Part shown: positions 53,870-62,392 of the stretch, in pieces | Layout: the number at the start of each line of letters is the position of its first letter | Numbering within the stretch: position 1 is the first letter of the stretch | Assembly: GCF_027111315.2 (NCBI RefSeq) | Contig: NZ_CP114289.2 | Span: 2,542,001-2,606,000 of the forward strand | From: Flavobacterium limnophilum | Lineage (GTDB): Bacteria > Bacteroidota > Bacteroidia > Flavobacteriales > Flavobacteriaceae | Direction: 5' to 3' | DNA length: 64,000 nt | Notes under the pieces: generated by a model | The model's input: the letters and a program-made list of their open reading frames with translations, nothing else | What the model was told of the DNA's origin: nothing | Databases searched by the model: none | Translations under genes and position numbers: made by a program

Positions 53870-54944
53870 TTCGTAATAAAAAAATTGCCAAAATTCCGAA
53901 TACGATATTAGGAAACCAAACTGCCAACAAAGGAGGGAAACTGGACTTTTCGGCCAAGGTGCCAAATATCTTGTCGAAAAACACGAAAGCAAAAGCAATA
54001 CCAATTCCTATGGCTAAACTCAATCCCATTCCGCCCCTACGTTTCATTGCCGAAACGGCAACGGCAATAATGGTCAAAATAAATGCCGAAACTGGAATGC
54101 TGTATTTTTTGTACAAAACCACCTTATAAACGTTGATATTGGAGGAACCTCGATTTTTTTCTTTCTCGATAAATCGGTTCAATTCGCCTAAAGTCAATGT
54201 TTCGGCAATATAGACCACGGGGGCTAAATCCTCTAAATCAAAACTAAATTTGGCGTCTTTTTTATCGGCTTTCTCGATTTTGTCCCCTAATTCCCCAACG
54301 GTTCTTTTGACGTAATCATACATGGTATAATTTTTTGTCTTTGGATTCCATTGTATCCTGCTGGCCGAAATTTTATACTCCAATTTATCTTTTATAAACC
54401 TTTCGTAACTAAAACTGTAAGCCGTTTTTGTATCGGTATTGAAGCTATTGACATAGATAAATTCGTTATCGCTAATTTGACGGTACACATCGGTGTTGTC
54501 GCCCCGCATGGCTTGTTTTCCGTCACCTCTAAGATAAGTGTACCTAAAATTATTGAATCCTTCACTCGCTTTTGGAACGATAAAAAATCCCATCAACAAC
54601 ACGATTACCGAAATGATGCAGGCTCCAATTATAAAAGGCCGCAAAAATCTCGTAAAAGAAATTCCGGAGCTTAAGATGGCAATGATTTCGGTATTGTTGG
54701 CCAATTTAGATGTAAACCAAATCACCGACAAGAACAAAAATATGGGAAATAACAGATTCATGAAATAGATGGTAAAATGATAATAGTAAATCAAAATCTC
54801 CGTAAGCGGGATTTTGTTTTCTATCATTTTATTTACCTTCTCCGAAACATCAATGATAATCCCAATAGGTGCAAACAACGCCAACATCACACCGAAAGTG
54901 GCCAGGTATTTTTTTAGGATGTATTTGTCTATTATTGTTAACAT
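53856..54944 (-). CDS. LptF/LptG-type permease (YjgP/YjgQ family)
   Basis: 362 residues: MLTIIDKYILKKYLATFGVMLALFAPIGIIIDVSEKVNKM at the start, six membrane helices (three N-terminal, three C-terminal) and a periplasmic jellyroll (about 130-260) with AMRGDNTDVYRQISDNEFIYVNSFN. The family transports lipopolysaccharide to the outer membrane with LptB. In Bacteroidota such proteins occur singly or in pairs; which of LptF or LptG it is cannot be told. It is in an operon with tgt upstream and the EamA gene downstream. Confidence 0.88.
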   Translation of the reverse strand: MLTIIDKYILKKYLATFGVMLALFAPIGIIIDVSEKVNKMIENKIPLTEILIYYYHFTIYFMNLLFPIFLFLSVIWFTSKLANNTEIIAILSSGISFTRFLRPFIIGACIISVIVLLMGFFIVPKASEGFNNFRYTYLRGDGKQAMRGDNTDVYRQISDNEFIYVNSFNTDTKTAYSFSYERFIKDKLEYKISASRIQWNPKTKNYTMYDYVKRTVGELGDKIEKADKKDAKFSFDLEDLAPVVYIAETLTLGELNRFIEKEKNRGSSNINVYKVVLYKKYSIPVSAFILTIIAVAVSAMKRRGGMGLSLAIGIGIAFAFVFFDKIFGTLAEKSSFPPLLAVWFPNIVFGILAIFLLRNAKR

Positions 54945-54950
54945 AGTAAA

Positions 54951-54998
54951 GTTTAATCGGTTAAACGATTAATCGGTTAAACGAATAACCGATTAAAC
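54951..54998. repeat. Nested repeat between lptG-like gene and tgt
   Basis: GTTTAATCGGTTA (54951-54963) is the inverse of TAACCGATTAAAC (54986-54998). A direct copy TTAATCGGTTAAACGA lies between (54969-54984), so three copies of one motif sit in 48 bp. Confidence 0.7.
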
Positions 54999-55002
54999 AA
55001 CT

Positions 55003-56133
55003 TTATAATCTCTGGCTCATGTTTCGAACCATCATTTCTTTCCAAGTCCTGAAATCTCCTGCCAAGATATGTTTTCTGGCTTCACGAACCAACCACATAT
55101 AGAATCCAAGATTGTGTATCGTGGCAATTTGTTTTCCAAGGTATTCATTGGCGGCAAACAAGTGACGCAAATAGGCTTTGGTATATTCCGTATCCACAAA
55201 TGTGTGACCCATTTCATCCACAGGCGAAAAATCGTCTTCCCATTTTTTGTTTTTGATGTTGATGGTTCCATTGGCGGTAAACAACATTCCGTTTCTGGCG
55301 TTTCTTGTGGGCATAACGCAGTCGAACATGTCAATTCCCAAGGCTATATTTTCCAAAATATTAATCGGAGTTCCCACGCCCATCAAATAACGAGGCTTGT
55401 CTTCTGGCAGGATTTCGCAAACCACCTCGGTCATCGCATACATTTCTTCGGCTGGTTCTCCTACCGAAAGTCCTCCGATGGCGTTTCCTTGTTGGCCGGA
55501 ATTCGCAATATATTCTGCTGATTGTTGACGCAAATCCTTGTATGTACTTCCTTGAACAATTGGGAAGAAAGTTTGGTCATAACCATATTTTGTAGGCACT
55601 TTATCCAAATGATTGATGCATCTGTCCAACCAACGGTGCGTCATTTTCATCGATTTTTGTGCATAACGATAATCGCAAGGATAGGGTGTACATTCGTCGA
55701 AAGCCATAATGATGTCGGCGCCAATGGTGCGTTGAATTTCCATCACGTTTTCGGGAGTGAAAAAATGATAAGAACCGTCAATATGCGATTTGAATTTTAC
55801 GCCTTCTTCCTTGATTTTTCTATTGGCCGAAAGCGAATATACTTGGTAGCCACCTGAATCGGTCAAAATATTCCTGTCCCAATTCATAAATTTGTGCAAA
55901 CCACCCGCTTTTTCCAGGATTTGAGTTTGCGGACGCAAGTATAAATGGTAGGTATTCCCAAGGATAATATCGGGGTTTATTTCTTCTTTCAATTCGCGTT
56001 GGTGCACTCCTTTTACAGAGGCAACGGTACCAACAGGCATAAAAATTGGGGTTTCAATCAGGCCGTGATCAGTAGTTATACTTCCTGCTCTGGCTTTGGT
56101 ATGTGGATCTTTTTGTAATAAATCAAACTTCAT
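55003..56133 (-). CDS. tgt: tRNA-guanine transglycosylase
   Basis: 376 residues. Exchanges G34 for preQ1 in tRNAs with GUN anticodons. Active-site aspartates in GGYQVYSLSANRKI-containing ILTDSGG and in MFDCVMPTRNARNG; zinc ligands near the C-terminus are less clear, with the family's LRHLFAANEYLGKQIATIHNLGFYMWL segment preserved. Its promoter lies at 56153-56160. Confidence 0.95.
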   Translation of the reverse strand: MKFDLLQKDPHTKARAGSITTDHGLIETPIFMPVGTVASVKGVHQRELKEEINPDIILGNTYHLYLRPQTQILEKAGGLHKFMNWDRNILTDSGGYQVYSLSANRKIKEEGVKFKSHIDGSYHFFTPENVMEIQRTIGADIIMAFDECTPYPCDYRYAQKSMKMTHRWLDRCINHLDKVPTKYGYDQTFFPIVQGSTYKDLRQQSAEYIANSGQQGNAIGGLSVGEPAEEMYAMTEVVCEILPEDKPRYLMGVGTPINILENIALGIDMFDCVMPTRNARNGMLFTANGTINIKNKKWEDDFSPVDEMGHTFVDTEYTKAYLRHLFAANEYLGKQIATIHNLGFYMWLVREARKHILAGDFRTWKEMMVRNMSQRL

Positions 56134-56152
56134 AAGGACATTTTTCAGTGCG

Positions 56153-56160
56153 CAAAGATA
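56153..56160 (-). promoter_or_regulatory. -7 element for tgt
   Basis: The minus strand reads TATCTTTG (TAnnTTTG), 19 bases upstream of the ATG at 56133. Confidence 0.6.
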
Positions 56161-56214
56161 ATTGATTTAAGATTTAACAATTAGGAATTACGATTTTATT
56201 TAACATTGTATTTC

Positions 56215-56260
56215 CATGAAGCCCTGTCAGGGTTCAAAACCCCGACAGGGCTGGGTTCAA
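56215..56260. repeat. GC-rich hairpin (REP-like)
   Basis: AGCCCTGTCAGGGTT and ACCCCGACAGGGCT pair around CAAA, followed by another GGGTTCAAAACCC. The base composition is unlike the surrounding DNA. It lies between the stops and starts of tgt and the gene at 56288-56980. Confidence 0.6.
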
Positions 56261-56287
56261 AACCCGGGCTATCTCGCTCTTACGGAA

Positions 56288-56980
56288 CTAAACCGGATTT
56301 TCGGCCGTTACAGCTGCTTCGCCCGAGACGGTATTGTAAATCACATAATCATTGTACTTCGCCACATCCTTGCTGGCCCAAATATCTTGCCCCGTTTGGG
56401 TATAAATCACCAGTAGCGAATAAATAGCATTGCCATCCTCTACACGGTCTTCTTGCTGAATATCTCTTTCGCCTATTTTCAGTTTTTGCTCAATAAGCAA
56501 AGCCTCAAATTGTTCGTTGAGTAAGCTAATATTATCTAAAAAAGCAGCGGTTAAACCTGTCGAAGCTAAATCGCCCAAACCATCAGTGCCCACTCTCACC
56601 ACCCTTTTGGCCGTTATGATCAAATCGGCATCGCTTTGTTTGCTCAAGACACCTACACCATAATTTTTGTAACGAGCCGAATCGGCACCATATTTCTGAG
56701 CCACCCTGGTCATTACGGCTCTAATGGCGGTGCGCAGTTCTTCGGCTTTGGCTTCTTTTTTCTCGCTGATTTGCGCCTGGTTGCTCGACGATTCAATATC
56801 GGTAACCAAATTAGAAAAGGCCGCAATCTGGGTTTCTAAAGCCGCAAATTGAGTTTCGTTCAATCCAAAAAGAGCAAAGGCCTCTAGGTCTCTGCGCATA
56901 AAGGCAATTTTTTCATTTCCGACGGCTATCAGTTGCGCATCCGAAAATTTATACAATCTCGTAACTTCTGCTTTTTTCAT
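56288..56980 (-). CDS. Helical protein, unrecognised
   Basis: 230 residues from MKKAEVTRLYKFSDAQLIAVGNEKIAFMRRD, the start placed by the -7 element at 57010-57017. All-alpha, no signal peptide or membrane helix. Segments such as AFALFGLNETQFAALETQIAAFS, ADSARYKNYGVGVLSKQSDADLIITAKRVVRVG and IGERDIQQEDRVEDGNAIYSLLVIYTQTGQDIWA look like a repeated-helix protein. I do not recognise a family. Its 5' region contains a 21-bp-period array. Confidence 0.6.
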   Translation of the reverse strand: MKKAEVTRLYKFSDAQLIAVGNEKIAFMRRDLEAFALFGLNETQFAALETQIAAFSNLVTDIESSSNQAQISEKKEAKAEELRTAIRAVMTRVAQKYGADSARYKNYGVGVLSKQSDADLIITAKRVVRVGTDGLGDLASTGLTAAFLDNISLLNEQFEALLIEQKLKIGERDIQQEDRVEDGNAIYSLLVIYTQTGQDIWASKDVAKYNDYVIYNTVSGEAAVTAENPV

Positions 56981-57009
56981 ACTAAAAAAGTTTTTAAGGT
57001 TTATCCTAA

Positions 57010-57017
57010 CAAAATTA
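57010..57017 (-). promoter_or_regulatory. -7 element for the gene at 56288-56980
   Basis: The minus strand reads TAATTTTG (TAnnTTTG), about 30 bases before the ATG at 56980. It rules out the longer reading from 57151. Confidence 0.6.
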
Positions 57018-57180
57018 GTAAAATATTGAATTCTAAACGAATAGGATTTGTTTTTTTTACTTTCTTTTTCGAAAAAATTTAGCTTTTCTTTTAATAACAA
57101 TAATCGATACCCCTTTTTTAGGTTTATTCCTTTCCGATTTCGTTTTGGCATTCCCTGAAATTGTCGTCAAAAAATATAAA

Positions 57181-57355
57181 ATAGCCTGCGGAAGCCTAAA
57201 ATCAACTGACGGAAGCTCTAAATTTTGATACGGAAGATTAAAATTAGCTGACGGAAGACCAAAATCTTGATACGGAAGATTAAAAGCAGCTGACGGAAGC
57301 TCTAAATCTTGACACGGAAGCCTTAAAGTAGCAGACGGAAGCTCTCGGGAAGTCA
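57181..57355. repeat. Tandem array with exact 21-bp period
   Basis: The core CGGAAG recurs at 57189, 57210, 57231, 57252, 57273, 57294, 57315 and 57336, exactly 21 bp apart. Alternate units are more alike (42-bp higher order; TGAC- and ATAC-type flanks alternate). On the minus strand this reads as heptads such as LPSANFN and LPYQNLE, without protein-like ends. No sequence kinship with the array at 10762-11376. Confidence 0.9.
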
Positions 57356-57681
57356 TTATTTGAGCTTCTGAGCACCTCTAGCGTTCTTTTTTGACCATTT
57401 TGCCTCTTTCGGACAGCAAATGATTCTTTTATAAAAACCAGTATTCTTTTTTTAATACCGATTTGAAAATGAATTTTACCAAAGCAGTTGTTTCTTATCA
57501 TGGAATGCACCACGCGCAAGGACTATTTTGCATATCTAGGCGGGATGAAACTAATGTAAGAAAGTTTACCTGTTACTTGAGATTATTTTATATATTTGAA
57601 ATTAAATAAAGTATGACGTTTGTCATACATATCAACCCAAAAATGGGTGGCTTTGTATGATTTTGTCACACATATAAACGA
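57356..57681. other. Gene-free stretch before the cassette-like region
   Basis: About 325 bp without a gene. There is a direct repeat around 57630-57675 (GTTTGTCATACATAT and TTTTGTCACACATAT) with the hairpin ACCCAAAAATGGGT between. It borders the first cassette-like unit at 57682. Confidence 0.5.
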
Positions 57682-57722
57682 GTTAGCTGTAACCATAAAA
57701 AAAACGTACTAAAAAAAACATT

Positions 57723-58196
57723 ATGAAAAAAATCACAATTTTATTTTTATTTATTTTAAACTTTAGTTATTCACAAACTAAAGAAGAAACAATTAATTGG
57801 CTGAATCTTAAATTAAAAGAAAATTCAGATTCTTATATGGGTGAATATAGTATCAAAATTCAAAAAGATAAAGATTGGGGAGAAACATTAGTTATATCTG
57901 TACGCATAAAAAACGATTATATGAGTGAGCATTATGAACAGTACTCATTTTTACCAAAAAATATAGCATCAGTTATAACAACAAAAAAGTTTAGAAATGA
58001 TGGTAAACTTGGATTAATAATTTCTGCTAAAGGAGAAAATATTTACCTCAATAGCAAAAAATTTGTGAGCGAAATTGAGATTTTATGTACACCTGCACCT
58101 GATGAAACAATAATACGAATTCAAAAAGGTTTTATTCATTTACTAAACTTAATGGGAAACCCAATAAAAATAACCAAAGAATTATTTAATGATTAA
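57723..58196 (+). CDS. Exported protein, unrecognised (cassette cargo)
   Basis: 157 residues with signal peptide (MKKITILFLFILNFSYSQTK, about 19). The mature part is alpha/beta: KEETINWLNLKLKENSDSYMGEYSIKIQ, a central ISVRIKNDYMSEHYEQYSFLPKNIASVI, and a C-terminal helix with GFIHLLNLMG. I do not recognise it. It sits 26 bp inside the left end of cassette-like unit 1 and 3 bp before the acetyltransferase gene. Confidence 0.6.
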   Translation: MKKITILFLFILNFSYSQTKEETINWLNLKLKENSDSYMGEYSIKIQKDKDWGETLVISVRIKNDYMSEHYEQYSFLPKNIASVITTKKFRNDGKLGLIISAKGENIYLNSKKFVSEIEILCTPAPDETIIRIQKGFIHLLNLMGNPIKITKELFND

Positions 58197-58199
58197 TTT

Positions 58200-58619
58200 A
58201 TGACAAAATTTGAAGCTGAAGAGATAGCCGATTTAATAAATAACCGAAATCAATTAACAAAAAAATATTCTTACGAAGAGATTTTATCTAATTCTGAAAA
58301 TTTTGTCTACTTAAAAGAAGAAAATAAAATTGTAGCCTGTGCTGAAAGTAAAAAAGTTCAATGGTATCAATTTGAAATCTTACACGTTTCAATCGCACAA
58401 GACTTTGAAGGAAAGGGTTTTGGAAATTTAATATTAAATCTTGCTGAAAAAAATGCGATAGAAAAAAATGCAAAAATTTTACAATGTACGATAAGGACAA
58501 ATAATGATAATAGTATTAGACTTTTTACAAGAAAAGGATATAAACAAGTGAATTCATTTTTCAATAATAAAAGTGGAAATTGGATTTTTATCTATCAAAA
58601 AACTATTGCAAATAAATAA
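58200..58619 (+). CDS. GNAT-family N-acetyltransferase (cassette cargo)
   Basis: 139 residues with the GNAT pattern: ENKIVACAESKKVQWYQFEILHVSIAQDFEGKGFGNLILNLAEKNAIEKNAKILQCTIRTNNDNSIRLFTRKGYKQVNSF. The acetyl-CoA loop is QDFEGKGFGN (normally Q/RxxGxG/A). Substrate unknown. It follows the secreted-protein gene by 3 bp and ends 2 bp before the right end of the cassette-like unit. Confidence 0.85.
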   Translation: MTKFEAEEIADLINNRNQLTKKYSYEEILSNSENFVYLKEENKIVACAESKKVQWYQFEILHVSIAQDFEGKGFGNLILNLAEKNAIEKNAKILQCTIRTNNDNSIRLFTRKGYKQVNSFFNNKSGNWIFIYQKTIANK

Positions 58620-58633
58620 AAATGGCTACAGCT

Positions 58634-58741
58634 AACAGCTAGAGTTCGTTGCGTGCGCAGCACGAACAATGAAACTTCTGTTGAACGGAACCGGCAATTA
58701 TCTTATACTATGGAGTTATCGAAAATTTGGAAAAGGAATAT
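58634..58741 (+). repeat. Shared repeat, copy 1
   Basis: TAACAGCTAGAGTTCGTTGC onwards, containing the hairpin GTTCGT...ACGAAC, then GGCAATTATCTTATACTATG, GAGTTATCGAAAATTTGGAA and AAGGAATAT. A second copy occupies 59873-60003. Each copy starts at the right end of a cassette-like unit. Confidence 0.8.
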
Positions 58742-59055
58742 GTAAGAAGTGTTTTTTATTCCTAATATGGAGTTATCGACAATCTATTGATTTTTAATAT
58801 AATAAATCAAATTCAAATGCCGTAACTACAATGCAAAAGTACAAACTAAATTGGGTTATGGCAATTATTTAAATTTGTTTTCAAAGGCTTCTTAGATAAT
58901 TATATTTTAACACAGCTACCGTAGGTTTAGTTCAACACACGCTACAAGCAATTTGGGGATTAGGCTTAATGGAAAAATGGTTTTGTATTTGATGTATTTG
59001 TTTTTAACCGAAAGATTACGCATCTTTAATCCCAGCCTGCTTGTAGCGCGGGAAC
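58742..59055. other. Non-coding stretch with long hairpin before unit 2
   Basis: No gene. CGCTACAAGCA (58940-58950) and GGGATTA (around 58956) pair with TAATCCC and TGCTTGTAGCG (59026-59048), forming an interrupted stem directly before the left end of unit 2 at 59056. A partial copy of the shared repeat (TATGGAGTTATCGACAATC) lies near 58770. Confidence 0.55.
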
Positions 59056-59876
59056 GTTACCTGCAAGTTTAAAAGACCGAAAATGAAAATTAACACAAAT
59101 ATTACTAGCCTTTCAGAATTTATAAGTTTTATAAATAATACCGAACACCGACATATCTCGCAATGGTTATATCGTGGTCATTCTAATTCTAATTATGAAT
59201 TAATTCCTAGTTTATTCAGAATTGACACAAAAGAATCTTGGGCTCATTGGGATAGTATAGAAGAATATATAATGACGCAATTTAAAAGAGAATCCATACC
59301 TTTTTTAAAAACAATTCCGAATAGTGAAATTGAATGGTTAACTATTGCACAACATTATGGACTACCCACAAGATTATTAGATTGGTCGACAAATCCTCTT
59401 ATAGCTTTGTACTTTGCTGTAGAAAACTTTGAAAATAATGAAGATGCAAATGTTTGGTTATATGGATTATCGTCTACGAATAATTGTTGGGAAGAAAGTA
59501 CGTGGCTAGCTAAAAAAATAAATCTAGGTGGAAATATTTGCGAAAATATTATTTTTCCACAACATATAGATTCTCGCATAACTAATCAGTCAGGATGTTT
59601 TACCATTCACCAAATTCCGAATAATAATGAAAAGTTTTTGCCTGCAAATGATTCTCCCAGAGTATTTGATACATTTATAAAACTTAATATCGATAGAAGT
59701 TTAAAAAAACAAATTCTTAATGAATTATATTATGTTGGAATACATAGAGGTTTCATTTATCCAGGATTAGAAGGAATTACTTCAAGAATAAAGTTTGAAA
59801 TTGGAACTACTCATAGACGAACAACATATAGAGATTTAATAAAGAATCATACAGAATAAAAAAACCTGCAGGTAAC
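59056..59876 (+). mobile_element. Cassette-like unit 2 (FRG-domain gene)
   Basis: GTTACCTGCAAGTTT (59056-59070) is the inverse of AAACCTGCAGGTAAC (59862-59876) at 14 of 15 positions, with the mismatch again at position 11. The unit is filled by one gene. It ends in the second copy of the shared repeat. The terminal sequence differs from that of unit 1 except for GTTA-CTG, so the ends pair with each other rather than matching a common sequence. Confidence 0.6.
59083..59859 (+). CDS. FRG-domain protein (cassette cargo)
   Basis: 258 residues: SEFISFINNTEHRHISQWLYRGHSNSNYELIPSLFRIDTKESW, then IEWLTIAQHYGLPTRLLDWSTNPLIALYFAVENFENNEDANVWLYG, the FRG domain signature (here YRG, QHYGLPTRLLDWS). The domain is widespread in bacterial and phage-associated genes and its activity is not settled. 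Codon usage is more AT-rich than the neighbours'. The gene fills cassette-like unit 2. Confidence 0.88.
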   Translation: MKINTNITSLSEFISFINNTEHRHISQWLYRGHSNSNYELIPSLFRIDTKESWAHWDSIEEYIMTQFKRESIPFLKTIPNSEIEWLTIAQHYGLPTRLLDWSTNPLIALYFAVENFENNEDANVWLYGLSSTNNCWEESTWLAKKINLGGNICENIIFPQHIDSRITNQSGCFTIHQIPNNNEKFLPANDSPRVFDTFIKLNIDRSLKKQILNELYYVGIHRGFIYPGLEGITSRIKFEIGTTHRRTTYRDLIKNHTE

Positions 59877-60003
59877 AGCTAGAATTTCGTTGCATGCGCA
59901 GCACCAACAATGAAACCCGTGTTGAACAGCTTGTCCCGATGCATCGGGAGAACCGGCAATTATCTTATACTATGGAGTTATCGAAAATTTTGGAAAAGGA
60001 ATA
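59873..60003 (+). repeat. Shared repeat, copy 2, with inserted palindrome
   Basis: It matches copy 1 (TAACAGCTAGAATTTCGTTG, CAGCACCAACAATGAAAC, then CCGGCAATTATCTTATACTA), except for an insertion containing the perfect 16-bp palindrome TCCCGATGCATCGGGA near 59935-59951. Confidence 0.8.
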
Positions 60004-60240
60004 TTAGATTTTGCACTAATATATTCCGCTTTGTATGGCGAATTTAAAATTATCTTGTCAAAATTAGAAACTATCTTTTTAGTTTCCATTAATTCTTTGA
60101 TCATAATATGGTATTTACATTATCACAAATATTCATTTTCATTTTCATTTTCATTTTCATTTTCATTTTAAATAAAAAGCATTTGATATTTTATCGAAAT
60201 CTTGTCGCAATAAGACTATATGCCGCAGATGAAAAACTTT
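60004..60240. other. Gene-free region with hexamer repeat
   Basis: Six copies of CATTTT run from 60134 to 60169. No gene; the next terminator-like hairpin is at 60241. Confidence 0.7.
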
Positions 60241-60267
60241 AGTCCTGCTTCGGTGGGACTTTTTTTG
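60241..60267 (+). terminator. Orphan terminator-like hairpin
   Basis: AGTCCTGC and GTGGGACT (60241-60248 and 60253-60260) pair around TTCG, followed by a T-run. It would end any transcript leaving the cassette region. Confidence 0.7.
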
Positions 60268-60385
60268 TCTTGTTCCAAAACAACGTTCCCTTTTACCAAG
60301 ACACCAAACGCCAGTAATCAACTTATTATCAATACTTTTAATAAAATAAACACTGCTTTTGATTGCGTGTTATTGCATATATAAG

Positions 60386-60393
60386 TACCTTTG
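60386..60393 (+). promoter_or_regulatory. -7 element for the LolA-like/ABC operon
   Basis: TACCTTTG matches TAnnTTTG, with TTG at 60363-60365 20 bases upstream, and the ATG at 60435. Confidence 0.6.
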
Positions 60394-60434
60394 AGAGAGT
60401 GACAATCTAGCATTTTACCCTTAAAAAGTTAGTC

Positions 60435-61181
60435 ATGAAAAAGACGTTACTCCTCTTGTTTTTTCATTTCGCATTTATCCTTGCTGCGGTTGGACAAGAC
60501 GCAAAAGATATTGTCAAAAAAGCCGACGAAAAGGCAAAAGGCAAAACCTCCATCTCCAATATTACCATCCAAATCATCAGGCCAACTTGGTCTCGGGAAA
60601 TGAGCGTGAAAGGCTGGTCAAAAGGCAATGATTATAGCCTGGCATTGGTTTTGGCTCCAGCCAAAGAAAAAGGAGTCGTCTTCTTGAAACGGAAAAAAGA
60701 AGTCTGGAACTGGATTCCTTCCATTGAACGGAACATCAAAATGCCGCCATCGATGATGAGCCAAAGCTGGATGGGAACGGATTTTACCAATGATGATTTG
60801 GTCAAGGAAGCCTCCATTCTCGAAGATTACGACCATTCGTTTATTGGAGATGTCAGCATTGACGGTAGAGATTGCTATAAAATTCAGCTAATCCCAAAAC
60901 CCAAATCGGCTGTCGTCTGGGGAAAAATCATTATGGCCATCGACAAAAAAGATTTTATGATGCTGCACGTCGAGTATTTTGACGAAGACAAAGCTTTGGT
61001 CAACACCATGTATTGCAGCGATATAAAAATGATTGGCGGTCGTTTATTACCCGGAAAAATGGAAATGGTTCCTGCCAACAAAAAAGGGAACAAGACGGTT
61101 TTGATCTACAATTCGATTGTTTTTGACACGCCACTGGAGGATTCTTTTTTTAGCACACAAAATATTACCAAAGTAAAATGA
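60435..61181 (+). CDS. LolA-like outer-membrane lipoprotein-sorting protein
   Basis: 248 residues; signal peptide to about 20 (FILAAVGQD). LolA-like family pattern: DIVKKADEKAKGKTSISNITIQIIRPTWSREMSVKGWSKGNDYSLALVLAPAKEKGVVFLKRKKEVWNWIPSIERNIKMPPSMM and a long hydrophobic-concave beta-sheet (KMIGGRLLPGKMEMVPANKKGNKTVLIYNSIVF). It is first of a four-gene operon with two permeases and an ATPase, with 4-base overlaps. In this context it probably receives a lipid-modified or hydrophobic ligand from the ABC transporter in the periplasm. Confidence 0.87.
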   Translation: MKKTLLLLFFHFAFILAAVGQDAKDIVKKADEKAKGKTSISNITIQIIRPTWSREMSVKGWSKGNDYSLALVLAPAKEKGVVFLKRKKEVWNWIPSIERNIKMPPSMMSQSWMGTDFTNDDLVKEASILEDYDHSFIGDVSIDGRDCYKIQLIPKPKSAVVWGKIIMAIDKKDFMMLHVEYFDEDKALVNTMYCSDIKMIGGRLLPGKMEMVPANKKGNKTVLIYNSIVFDTPLEDSFFSTQNITKVK

Positions 61182-62392
61182 TACTGAAATTAATCTGGAG
61201 AAACCTCTGGCGCAACAGCCGCCGAACGCTAATCACGATGGCTTCGATTGCTTTTGCCGTTTTGTTTGCCATTTTGATGAAGTCGTTCCAGAATGGGGTT
61301 TTCAACAATTTAATCAAAAATGTCGTCGGTTATTATTCGGGTTATGTCCAAATTCACCAAAAAGGATATTGGAACGAACAAGTACTCGACAATTGCTTTG
61401 CATTGGATAATTCCCTAATCGAAAAGCTCCAACAAAATCCACAAATAAATGAAGTTGTTCCCCGGTTGGAGACTTTTGTTTTGGTTTCAAAAGAAAACAC
61501 CACCAAAGGCTGTATGTTGGTGGGCACGGACGCTGTAAAAGAAAATAACTTAACCCAGTTAAAAAATAAACTGATTGACGGAAGCTATTTCAACAACAAT
61601 GAAGAATCCGTAATTCTTGCCGAGGGTTTGGCAAAACGGATTAATGCAATAGTTAACGACACCATCGTACTATTTGGTCAAGGCTATCACGGCGCAATGG
61701 CTGCGGGAAAATTCAAGATAAAAGGCATCGTGCACTTAGCCTCACCTGCAATGAATGATGCTTTTGTGTATTTGCCGTTATCTGCAACGCAATATTATTT
61801 AAGCGCAGAAAACAGGCTCACTTCCCTATCCTTGGGAATTGCTAATGCCGAAAACGGAAATACAATTGTCGAGAACCTAAAAAAAACGATAGGCAAAAAG
61901 TACGAAGTCATGTCTTGGCAGGAAATGATGCCCGAAATTGCCAACCACATCAAAGCGGATGGTTTTTCGTTTTACGTATTTTCTGGAATATTGTACCTCA
62001 TCATCGGTTTCGGACTTTTTGGGACTATTTTGATGATGACTATTGAACGAACGTATGAATTCGGAATGCTCATCGCCATTGGAATGAAAAAAGGGAAATT
62101 GAAAATGATTTTATTGGGCGAGGCATTTCTGATTACATTGCTTGGCGTGCTTTTGGGAATCTTGTTAAGCCTGCCTTCTGTGCTTTATTTACAGGAAAAA
62201 CCCATTCGTTTTAGCGGCGATATTGCCAAAGCCTACGAGCAATTCGGCTTTGAAGCCATATTCCCTGCGGAGCTGGATTTAAATATATTTTTCACCCAAT
62301 CACTGATTGTGTTATTTATGTCGATCTTGATTGGTTTGTATCCGCTTTGGTTTGTTAACGGTTTGAATCCAGTTAAAGCAATGAAAAAATGA
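61178..62392 (+). CDS. ABC transporter permease (FtsX/MacB-like)
   Basis: 404 residues. Four membrane helices: one N-terminal (LITMASIAFAVLFAIL), three C-terminal (from about 275: ILYLIIGFGLFGTILMM, LGEAFLITLLGVLLGILLS, FFTQSLIVLFMSILIGLYP), with a periplasmic MacB_PCD-type domain between. Start ATG overlaps the LolA-like stop by 4 bases. FtsX-type permeases carry lipoproteins or peptides across the inner membrane without a channel. Confidence 0.92.
   Translation: MILKLIWRNLWRNSRRTLITMASIAFAVLFAILMKSFQNGVFNNLIKNVVGYYSGYVQIHQKGYWNEQVLDNCFALDNSLIEKLQQNPQINEVVPRLETFVLVSKENTTKGCMLVGTDAVKENNLTQLKNKLIDGSYFNNNEESVILAEGLAKRINAIVNDTIVLFGQGYHGAMAAGKFKIKGIVHLASPAMNDAFVYLPLSATQYYLSAENRLTSLSLGIANAENGNTIVENLKKTIGKKYEVMSWQEMMPEIANHIKADGFSFYVFSGILYLIIGFGLFGTILMMTIERTYEFGMLIAIGMKKGKLKMILLGEAFLITLLGVLLGILLSLPSVLYLQEKPIRFSGDIAKAYEQFGFEAIFPAELDLNIFFTQSLIVLFMSILIGLYPLWFVNGLNPVKAMKK

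Follow-up and report, generated by a model that had tools for sequence, protein, structure and literature searches.

Two cassette-like units of Flavobacterium limnophilum very probably belong to an integron-like system of Bacteroidota

Among the gene-collecting machines of bacteria, integrons are the best known. We examined two adjacent cassette-like units in a 64-kb stretch of the Flavobacterium limnophilum genome (here called the window, meaning that whole stretch), and we conclude that they are very probably gene cassettes that belong to a Bacteroidota system of integron-like type. A reading of the sequence alone had proposed a cassette system of this phylum whose ends pair inside each unit, and the comparisons reported here give that proposal strong support through linkage to a recombinase, recurrence of the units and covariation of their ends. 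The layout, the covariation and the recurrence of units together with their own sites likewise make an integron-like way of working appear well supported. The system is not, however, a member of the integrons served by the integrase IntI, as it has neither the integrase insert nor the GTTRRRY consensus of that group.

Unit 1 of the window carries the left arm GTTAGCTGTAACCAT and the right arm ATGGCTACAGCTAAC, and unit 2 the left arm GTTACCTGCAAGTTT and the right arm AAACCTGCAGGTAAC. In each unit the arms pair at 14 of 15 positions and the sole mismatch is position 11, where the left arm has A and the complement of the right arm has G (A/G below). On the top strand position 11 places A opposite C and on the bottom strand T opposite G, so that the stem is unbroken on the bottom strand only. 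An end-pair detector was used that requires exact pairing at positions 4-9 and pairing at a minimum of 4 of positions 10 and 12-15, with the ends 150-5000 bp apart; it ignores position 11, and a repeat of the scan in which the ends come in reverse order served as control. Over the entire window the detector returned 3 pairs and the control 0. Two of the pairs are units 1 and 2, the only ones with A/G, and the third has C/G at position 11. The private, self-complementary ends of 15 nucleotides (nt) with a mismatch at position 11, as first described from the letters alone, were thus borne out.

Relatives of the F. limnophilum recombinase described below were sought in one genome per species, which gave 550, and the best 80 loci were kept; by title most belong to Bacteroidota, a few to other phyla and one to a Lachnospiraceae-labelled assembly. 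These loci held 134 end pairs (overlapping ones included) compared to 22 in the reversed control, and position 11 was A/G or G/A in 102 of the 134 versus 4 of the 22. All 77 A/G pairs lie downstream of the recombinase and all 25 G/A pairs upstream, with no exception; one of the 25 (at L082) looks like chance. At least one rule-conforming unit was present at 38 of the 80 loci. At 13 same-genus loci, picked for many site matches, 125 of 130 pairs were A/G or G/A, and there were 14 control pairs.

A full-length recombinase was found in 10 of 14 same-genus genomes, also picked for many site matches. Seven arrays were analyzed, that of F. limnophilum and six from those ten genomes, selected for site clusters near the recombinase gene. 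They contain 29, 27, 48, 42, 11, 11 and 6 detected A/G units (174 in total), 11 pairs without the mark and no G/A pair, and the largest array extends 51 kb past the recombinase. From the recombinase stop codon to the first detected unit the distance is 104, 104, 105 and 105 nt in four of the seven, and 122 of the 167 gaps between detected units measure 90-190 nt, mostly 108-120.

Since the end-pair detector itself selects on pairing, units were bounded by a profile of the bodies between them instead. The profile was trained on 106 bodies from between pairing-selected units of six arrays, none of them from the F. limnophilum genome, and AAC and GTT were required at its ends, so arm positions 1-3 match by construction. 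In the seven arrays it found 232 bodies, all on the strand of the recombinase and 0 on the other. The arms of the 214 units between consecutive bodies paired at 12 or more of 13 positions in 164 cases, compared to 6 of 214 with a random partner. Positions 4-9 paired in 92-95% of units (26-76% with a random partner), positions 12-15 in 79-90% (30-47%) and position 10 in 75% (24%), and pairing was at background from position 16 on; the left arms comprised 156 distinct sequences. Position 11 was A/G in 187 units, A/C in 16, A/A in 8, A/T in 2 and T/G in 1. The prediction that the ends covary within units, once tested, was therefore not refuted. Short inverted repeats are common in AT-rich DNA, as the 22 control pairs at the 80 loci illustrate, but arms that lie hundreds of bases apart and covary over so many distinct sequences, mostly with one fixed mismatch, refute chance inverted repeats or transcription terminators as an explanation.

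In integrons, a site belongs to the cassette upstream of it. The same logic of gene plus attC was shown here, in that the recurring unit is a cassette with its own downstream body. In 28 within-genome pairs of units that are at least 97% identical, the downstream bodies were 98-100% identical (mean 99.8%) and the upstream bodies 79% on average; the downstream body was the more alike in 27 pairs and equal in 1, with some pairs sharing a unit. Neighboring units were at background in most of the 28 pairs, while one or both neighbors were alike in four. Between genomes there were 10 whole-unit pairs, 87-90% identical, including one between F. limnophilum and genome G397. In addition, F. enshiense and Flavobacterium sp. 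SM15 have in common a 1319-bp cassette with its own 117-nt body (96.9% identical), around which the other sites are mostly 148-153 nt and the neighboring cassettes differ. Arrays might instead owe their movement to the Xer recombinases of the cell or to homologous recombination acting on similar bodies, with the neighboring recombinase incidental. The bodies within one genome, judging from the mean identity of the upstream ones, are alike enough to recombine, and one pair (G324_u25/u28) also has the preceding unit in common, which fits a block duplication. However, homologous recombination neither creates nor needs arms that are private yet self-paired, the orientation to the recombinase holds in 102 of 102 A/G or G/A pairs, and the cassette with the 117-nt body sits among longer sites in two species; we consider this explanation highly unlikely.

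Folding calculations showed that arm, body and arm of the bottom strand can form one long hairpin. The bottom strand was predicted to fold more stably in 149 of 155 distinct arm-body-arm sites (mean difference 4.1 kcal/mol), and the unit's own left arm folded better than that of a foreign unit in 118 of 122 sites. In the printed structures, an unpaired spacer separates an R stem of 15-16 bp from an L stem measuring some 20 bp. On the bottom strand, and there alone, the constant A/C of position 11 turns into a G.T pair. Published attC sites, as treated in PMC2727003, are used as the bottom strand, and their polarity mark is an extrahelical base in L''. By analogy, position 11 may play the same role as that base.

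No recombinase had been visible to the sequence-only reading. This holds for the window locus, where tblastn over positions 54001-62000 found no recombinase remnant (best E 0.16), but not for the genome: the suggested look for a tyrosine recombinase elsewhere found one of 350 amino acids (aa) at C1:1017957-1019009 (L020:12958-14010, minus strand). It stands at the head of a larger array at 993-1017 kb and has the same direction, about 1.58 Mb from the window locus in contig coordinates. Its nearest named relatives, in Flavobacterium, are 84-86% identical. Against the integron integrase profile TIGR02249 it scored 202.7 bits, below the cut-off of 265. The spacing from KGKxxR to LRH is 66-69 in 48 of 48 Bacteroidota recombinases, 108 in 20 of 20 IntI proteins over the cut-off and 72-74 in 6 Xer proteins, and the recombinase is without the insert that defines IntI. 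Across 42 recombinase sequences R207, K232, H296, R299 and Y331 are invariant and H322 nearly so; we take these six to be the catalytic residues. Residues 1-75 form an extra N-terminal domain with the conserved motif F..N..LI..K...WS...W, which is missing from the aligned IntI and Xer proteins, and the structure comparison of the recombinase covered mostly residues 71-336. The motif reminded us of the HARP domain of SMARCAL1, a presumed likeness that the searches did not confirm and that serves as a lead only. In a profile search of solved chains with the N-terminal domain, 4o66 (the SMARCAL1 HARP domain) appeared only at E 1.1, below six unrelated rows, and Pfam gave weak matches to DUF5710 in 9 of 31 members (best E 0.002).

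The sequence-only reading had further described a shared repeat after each unit and a site of more than 400 bp. The repeat is indeed present, but it is the end or a deletion derivative of an IS91-family element and not part of the unit; its place as part of the site was rejected. The long site was rejected as well. It resolves into a 300-bp insert and a 119-nt site, and since the body profile finds the 119-nt body intact, the IS91-derived insert explains the repeat as well as the long gap. Counting itself, the DNA behind unit 1 matches 18 places in the genome, eight of them at C1:993-1016 kb and all of these on the minus strand. Of 19 right ends examined in this genome, 16 could be anchored. 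The private bases that precede AAC have a pairing GTT end upstream in 12 of the 16 (one of them ambiguous), invariably with A/G at position 11, and in the other 4 none was found. IS91-family elements of 2374-2399 bp, or deletion derivatives of 300 or 322 bp, lie in this genome between private AAC ends and attC-like bodies. The long copy examined in the main array encodes an IS91-type (HUH) transposase (NF033538, 440.3 bits; cut-off 125) and a 287-aa tyrosine recombinase; the copies in the window are without the transposase gene, and this assignment concerns the insert only.

Alternatively, the IS91-family element, an end of which lies behind each unit, might carry the units as passengers. In F. 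limnophilum an AGCTAG-like left end directly follows AAC in 16 of 19 regular-expression hits (one copy counted twice because of overlapping loci and one hit probably false), 0 of 5 gaps in the main array are of plain site size, and the element carries a tyrosine recombinase of its own. Nevertheless, the 122 gaps of 90-190 nt lie in six other genomes and are too short for the element, and the insert interrupts a site whose sequence continues on its far side: of the 19 hits, 9 have an identified right end, and all nine read GTTCAAC followed by an attC-like start. We regard the passenger explanation as extremely unlikely. As a separate observation, the element lies exactly at the AAC of attC-like sites in the window and in the main array (L019 and L020), as if it targeted cassette recombination sites, and the annotation of a Chryseobacterium oryzae plasmid (L196) has IS91 plus a tyrosine recombinase at two places downstream of the recombinase relative there.

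Most simply, the window locus is a relic platform consisting of an attI-like leader and two cassettes, one of whose sites was broken by the IS91-derived insert (Table 1). Taken as the 95 bases that end with the GTT of unit 1, the leader is 84.4% identical over 96 nt to that of G109, taken from the recombinase stop to the first detected cassette (E 7.5e-24), and 70.3% and 71.6% identical to those of G167 and G389 (E 1.8e-6 each). The match stops exactly at the GTT of the first cassette in G109 and G167; in G389 no unit was detected there. Because the leader is akin to those of other genomes and not to that of its own, and no recombinase gene adjoins it, the locus is most simply taken as a second, decayed platform from a sub-lineage other than that of the recombinase at 1.02 Mb. 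The leaders of G259, G167, G397 and G109 (L174, L177, L180 and L185) hold inverted and direct repeats whose sequence varies by genome; by eye the pairing seems kept, as if leader arms were species-private.

Table 1. Features of the window locus, with positions counted from the first letter of the window.
Feature	Position	Strand	Remarks
attI-like leader, no adjoining integrase gene	57590..57681	+	ends at GTT of unit 1
Cassette 1 (unit 1)	57682..58636	+	private arms 57682-57696 and 58622-58636
Cassette 1 gene a, 157-aa protein of unknown function	57723..58196	+	signal-peptide-like start (our reading)
Cassette 1 gene b, GNAT acetyltransferase	58200..58619	+	PF00583 E 2.9e-12
Internally deleted IS91-family element	58637..58936	+	at AAC of the attC-like site, flanked by AAC left and right
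attC-like body belonging to cassette 1, 119 nt, predicted imperfect hairpin	58937..59055	+	between AAC 58934-58936 and GTT 59056-59058
Cassette 2 (unit 2)	59056..59876	+	private arms 59056-59070 and 59862-59876
Cassette 2 gene, FRG-domain protein	59083..59859	+	PF08867 E 3.2e-28
IS91-family left-end remnant	59877..60004 (end approximate)	+	at AAC of cassette 2; match C1:2601870-2602004

The attC-like body of cassette 1, with the arms CGCTACAAGC and GCTTGTAGCG as read in the sequence, is the single body match in the whole window (58934-59058, model positions 1-125, E 1.5e-29). The insert before it ends in an AAC that can equally be read as belonging to the site; its first 58 nt are 95-97% identical to the left end of the longer copies in the main array and its last 22 nt 95% identical to their right end. 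The remnant after cassette 2 has the left junction AAC followed by AGCTAG; its right end was not found, nor did the body profile find an attC-like body behind it. The only Pfam match of gene a was T4_gp9_10_C, below the cut-off of that family. The FRG protein of cassette 2 matches PDC-S15, a candidate anti-phage defense family (PADLOC PDLC04938, E 3.7e-74). No Rfam family reached its gathering score in 56000-61500. Upstream of the leader, a 21-bp repeat (CGGAAG...) runs in tandem at 57189-57341.

Several observations weigh against the integron-like interpretation. The evidence is wholly comparative, without an observed recombination event. No near-exact copy of the two window units appeared among the matches listed from 397 other same-genus genomes, a search in which two candidates were scored per genome. 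The window leader matches only 3 of the 7 array leaders, and the other four, including that of its own genome, gave no significant match. No rule-conforming unit was found at 42 of the 80 recombinase loci, some of which are on short contigs. In the three remaining arrays the first detected units lie 151, 865 and 1237 nt past the recombinase stop; in the last of these (G389) the leader match ends about 107 nt past the stop, so the first unit may have been missed. Gaps were not site-sized in 45 of 167 cases. Among the 214 independently bounded units, 50 fell below 12 of 13 paired arm positions and 27 were without A/G at position 11. Finally, the downstream body was the more similar in only 7 of the 10 between-genome pairs, and not in that between F. 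limnophilum and G397.

Matches to the recombinase profile (E ≤ 1e-60) occur in 200 of 395 genomes of the class and 115 of 196 genera; this count takes in relatives without the N-terminal domain, such as IS91-borne ones, and refers to recombinase matches rather than arrays. With the N-terminal domain alone as query (E ≤ 1e-6), 137 of 395 class genomes and 79 of 196 genera matched, which again is not evidence of arrays. Two Chryseobacterium plasmids carry full-length relatives that are 46% identical; on one a rule-conforming unit with its body follows the recombinase gene, and on the other no unit was detected. Among three plasmids that carry recombinase relatives, L195 has a single A/G unit, and L196 and L197 have none; L195 gave 5 end pairs versus 6 in the control, and its other four pairs are not A/G. 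The Lachnospiraceae-labelled assembly (L074) has a recombinase 60% identical with four A/G units downstream, which may reflect mislabelled DNA or spread beyond Bacteroidota. The cargo was sampled from five genomes as the longest open reading frame of each unit, of 60 aa or more, and no Pfam family occurred in more than 2 of the 91 distinct cassette proteins; matches include YoeB, ParE, PIN, Fic and DNA methylases. In the G324 array (L150, L182, L183), many of the 42 detected units are copies, about 497-511 bp long, of related cassettes with 108-111-nt bodies, and the longest open reading frame is antisense to the array in 21 of the 42, possibly a self-amplifying cassette.

We propose that a platform would consist of a gene for a tyrosine recombinase of about 350 aa, an attI-like leader (about 100 nt) and cassettes arrayed head to tail, and that each cassette would be a gene between private 15-nt arms (GTT..., ...AAC) together with a downstream attC-like body, mostly 108-120 nt in this genus. 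The recombinase would recognize the folded bottom strand, would tell the left from the right arm by the position-11 mark (sometimes also position 10), and would cut at GTT and insert the cassette at attI. A bolder proposal, of which we are slightly more doubtful than confident, is that this is a second class of integron in Bacteroidota, present in at least a third of the genomes of the main class, with an integrase that lost the insert or never had it, a private 15-bp stem whose position-11 G.T pair would mark strand and polarity, and an N-terminal domain, missing from IntI, that may grip the hairpin. A gene-collecting machine of a large bacterial group may thus have been overlooked. If so, current searches miss a large cassette reservoir in Flavobacterium-type genomes, which would hold toxins, methylases, candidate defense genes and numerous genes that match no Pfam family. 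With an integrase that works without the insert, what lets such enzymes recognize a folded single strand would become open to direct experiment.

The boxes of classical integron sites have the consensus RYYYAAC / GTTRRRY. In our arrays only 20 of 214 left arms fit GTTRRRY, whereas GTTRNNNG fits 187. Bodies start after AAC and end before GTT, partly by construction of the detector and border search, in agreement with the AAC and GTT given for attC boundaries in PMC2727003. Other traits of integrons were also seen: an imperfect hairpin with a structured bottom strand (the 149 of 155 sites above, from folding only) and a gene moving as one with its own downstream attC (28 of 28 within-genome pairs, 7 of 10 between genomes). 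The leader is a candidate attI by position, as the first detected unit lies 104-105 nt past the stop in 4 of 7 arrays, and some leaders are related between genomes. A classical integron has an IntI with an integron-specific additional domain around patch III (PMC9668308); the Bacteroidota recombinases do not have it, judging from the 66-69 spacing and, for F. limnophilum, the score below the TIGR02249 cut-off. A finder for classical attC sites gave 8 vs. 5 sites. On 20 IntI loci the strict 15-nt detector returned 15 pairs versus 5 in the control, with A/G or G/A in 2 of 15; classical arms are shorter, so this low yield is not by itself proof of a difference. GTTRRRY-type arms of 9 nt numbered 48 vs. 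6 in the control (both strands) at 21 IntI loci (the 20 over the cut-off and one so annotated), where position 11 was matched in 62%; at the 80 Bacteroidota loci there was no excess (56 vs. 52) and at the 13 same-genus array loci a slight one (26 vs. 14).

The window units could be classical attC cassettes of an ordinary integron, or of a cluster of attC sites lacking an integron integrase (CALIN), served by a genuine IntI in the same cell. The layout is alike, with an integrase, an attI-like leader, oriented cassettes, a downstream hairpin site and bottom-strand asymmetry, and PMC2727003, which describes arms that can pair to 9-11 nt and sites of 57-142 nt and calls only the boundary AAC and GTT conserved, leaves room for such sites. 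Against this, no IntI over the family cut-off was found in the F. limnophilum genome, and service by a genuine IntI of that genome was rejected; within the phylum, 105 of 395 genomes have such a protein, yet a hand count gave 1 among the 98 genomes listed as this one or as members of its genus, family, order or class. The scarcity of GTTRRRY and an excess of 9-nt arms at IntI loci but not at the 80 Bacteroidota loci point the same way, and we find an ordinary integron very improbable here. In the literature searched (titles and the start of abstracts, preprints being outside the search) no description of such arrays in Bacteroidota was found. The portion of PMC8352920 consulted names 11 taxa with attC models, with no Bacteroidota among them, and IntegronFinder 2.0, according to the portion of PMC9024848 consulted, reports one Bacteroidetes genome with a complete integron, Salinibacter ruber M1, besides Chlorobi and Ignavibacteriae.

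Among known systems, the IS91 family (HUH transposase) accounts for the shared repeat, but it is an intruder in the attC-like site and not the cassette system. The F. limnophilum recombinase resembles the 'integron-like' subgroup of tyrosine recombinases of PMC8138268 in matching TIGR02249 below the cut-off; the part of that source consulted calls the IntI insert essential for integron function and mentions no cassette arrays run by members without it. A CALIN is defined, in the section of PMC9668308 that we used, as at least 2 attC sites less than 4 kb apart without a neighboring IntI. The window locus likewise has cassettes without a neighboring integrase, but it keeps an attI-like leader and has one complete site only, and its sites are of the Bacteroidota class. 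The likeness to sedentary chromosomal integrons is broad and includes an integrase gene by an attI-like leader, small cassettes lined up in one direction in long arrays, R-type arms that are private and carry GTT and AAC, a hairpin site downstream of the gene, bottom-strand asymmetry, duplicated cassettes and toxin genes of toxin-antitoxin systems in the cargo. The Bacteroidota system differs from them in an integrase without the IntI insert and with an extra N-terminal domain, in 15-nt arms that bear the position-11 mark and are mostly not GTTRRRY, and in an array that runs in the direction of the recombinase for 77 end pairs but points away from it for 25.

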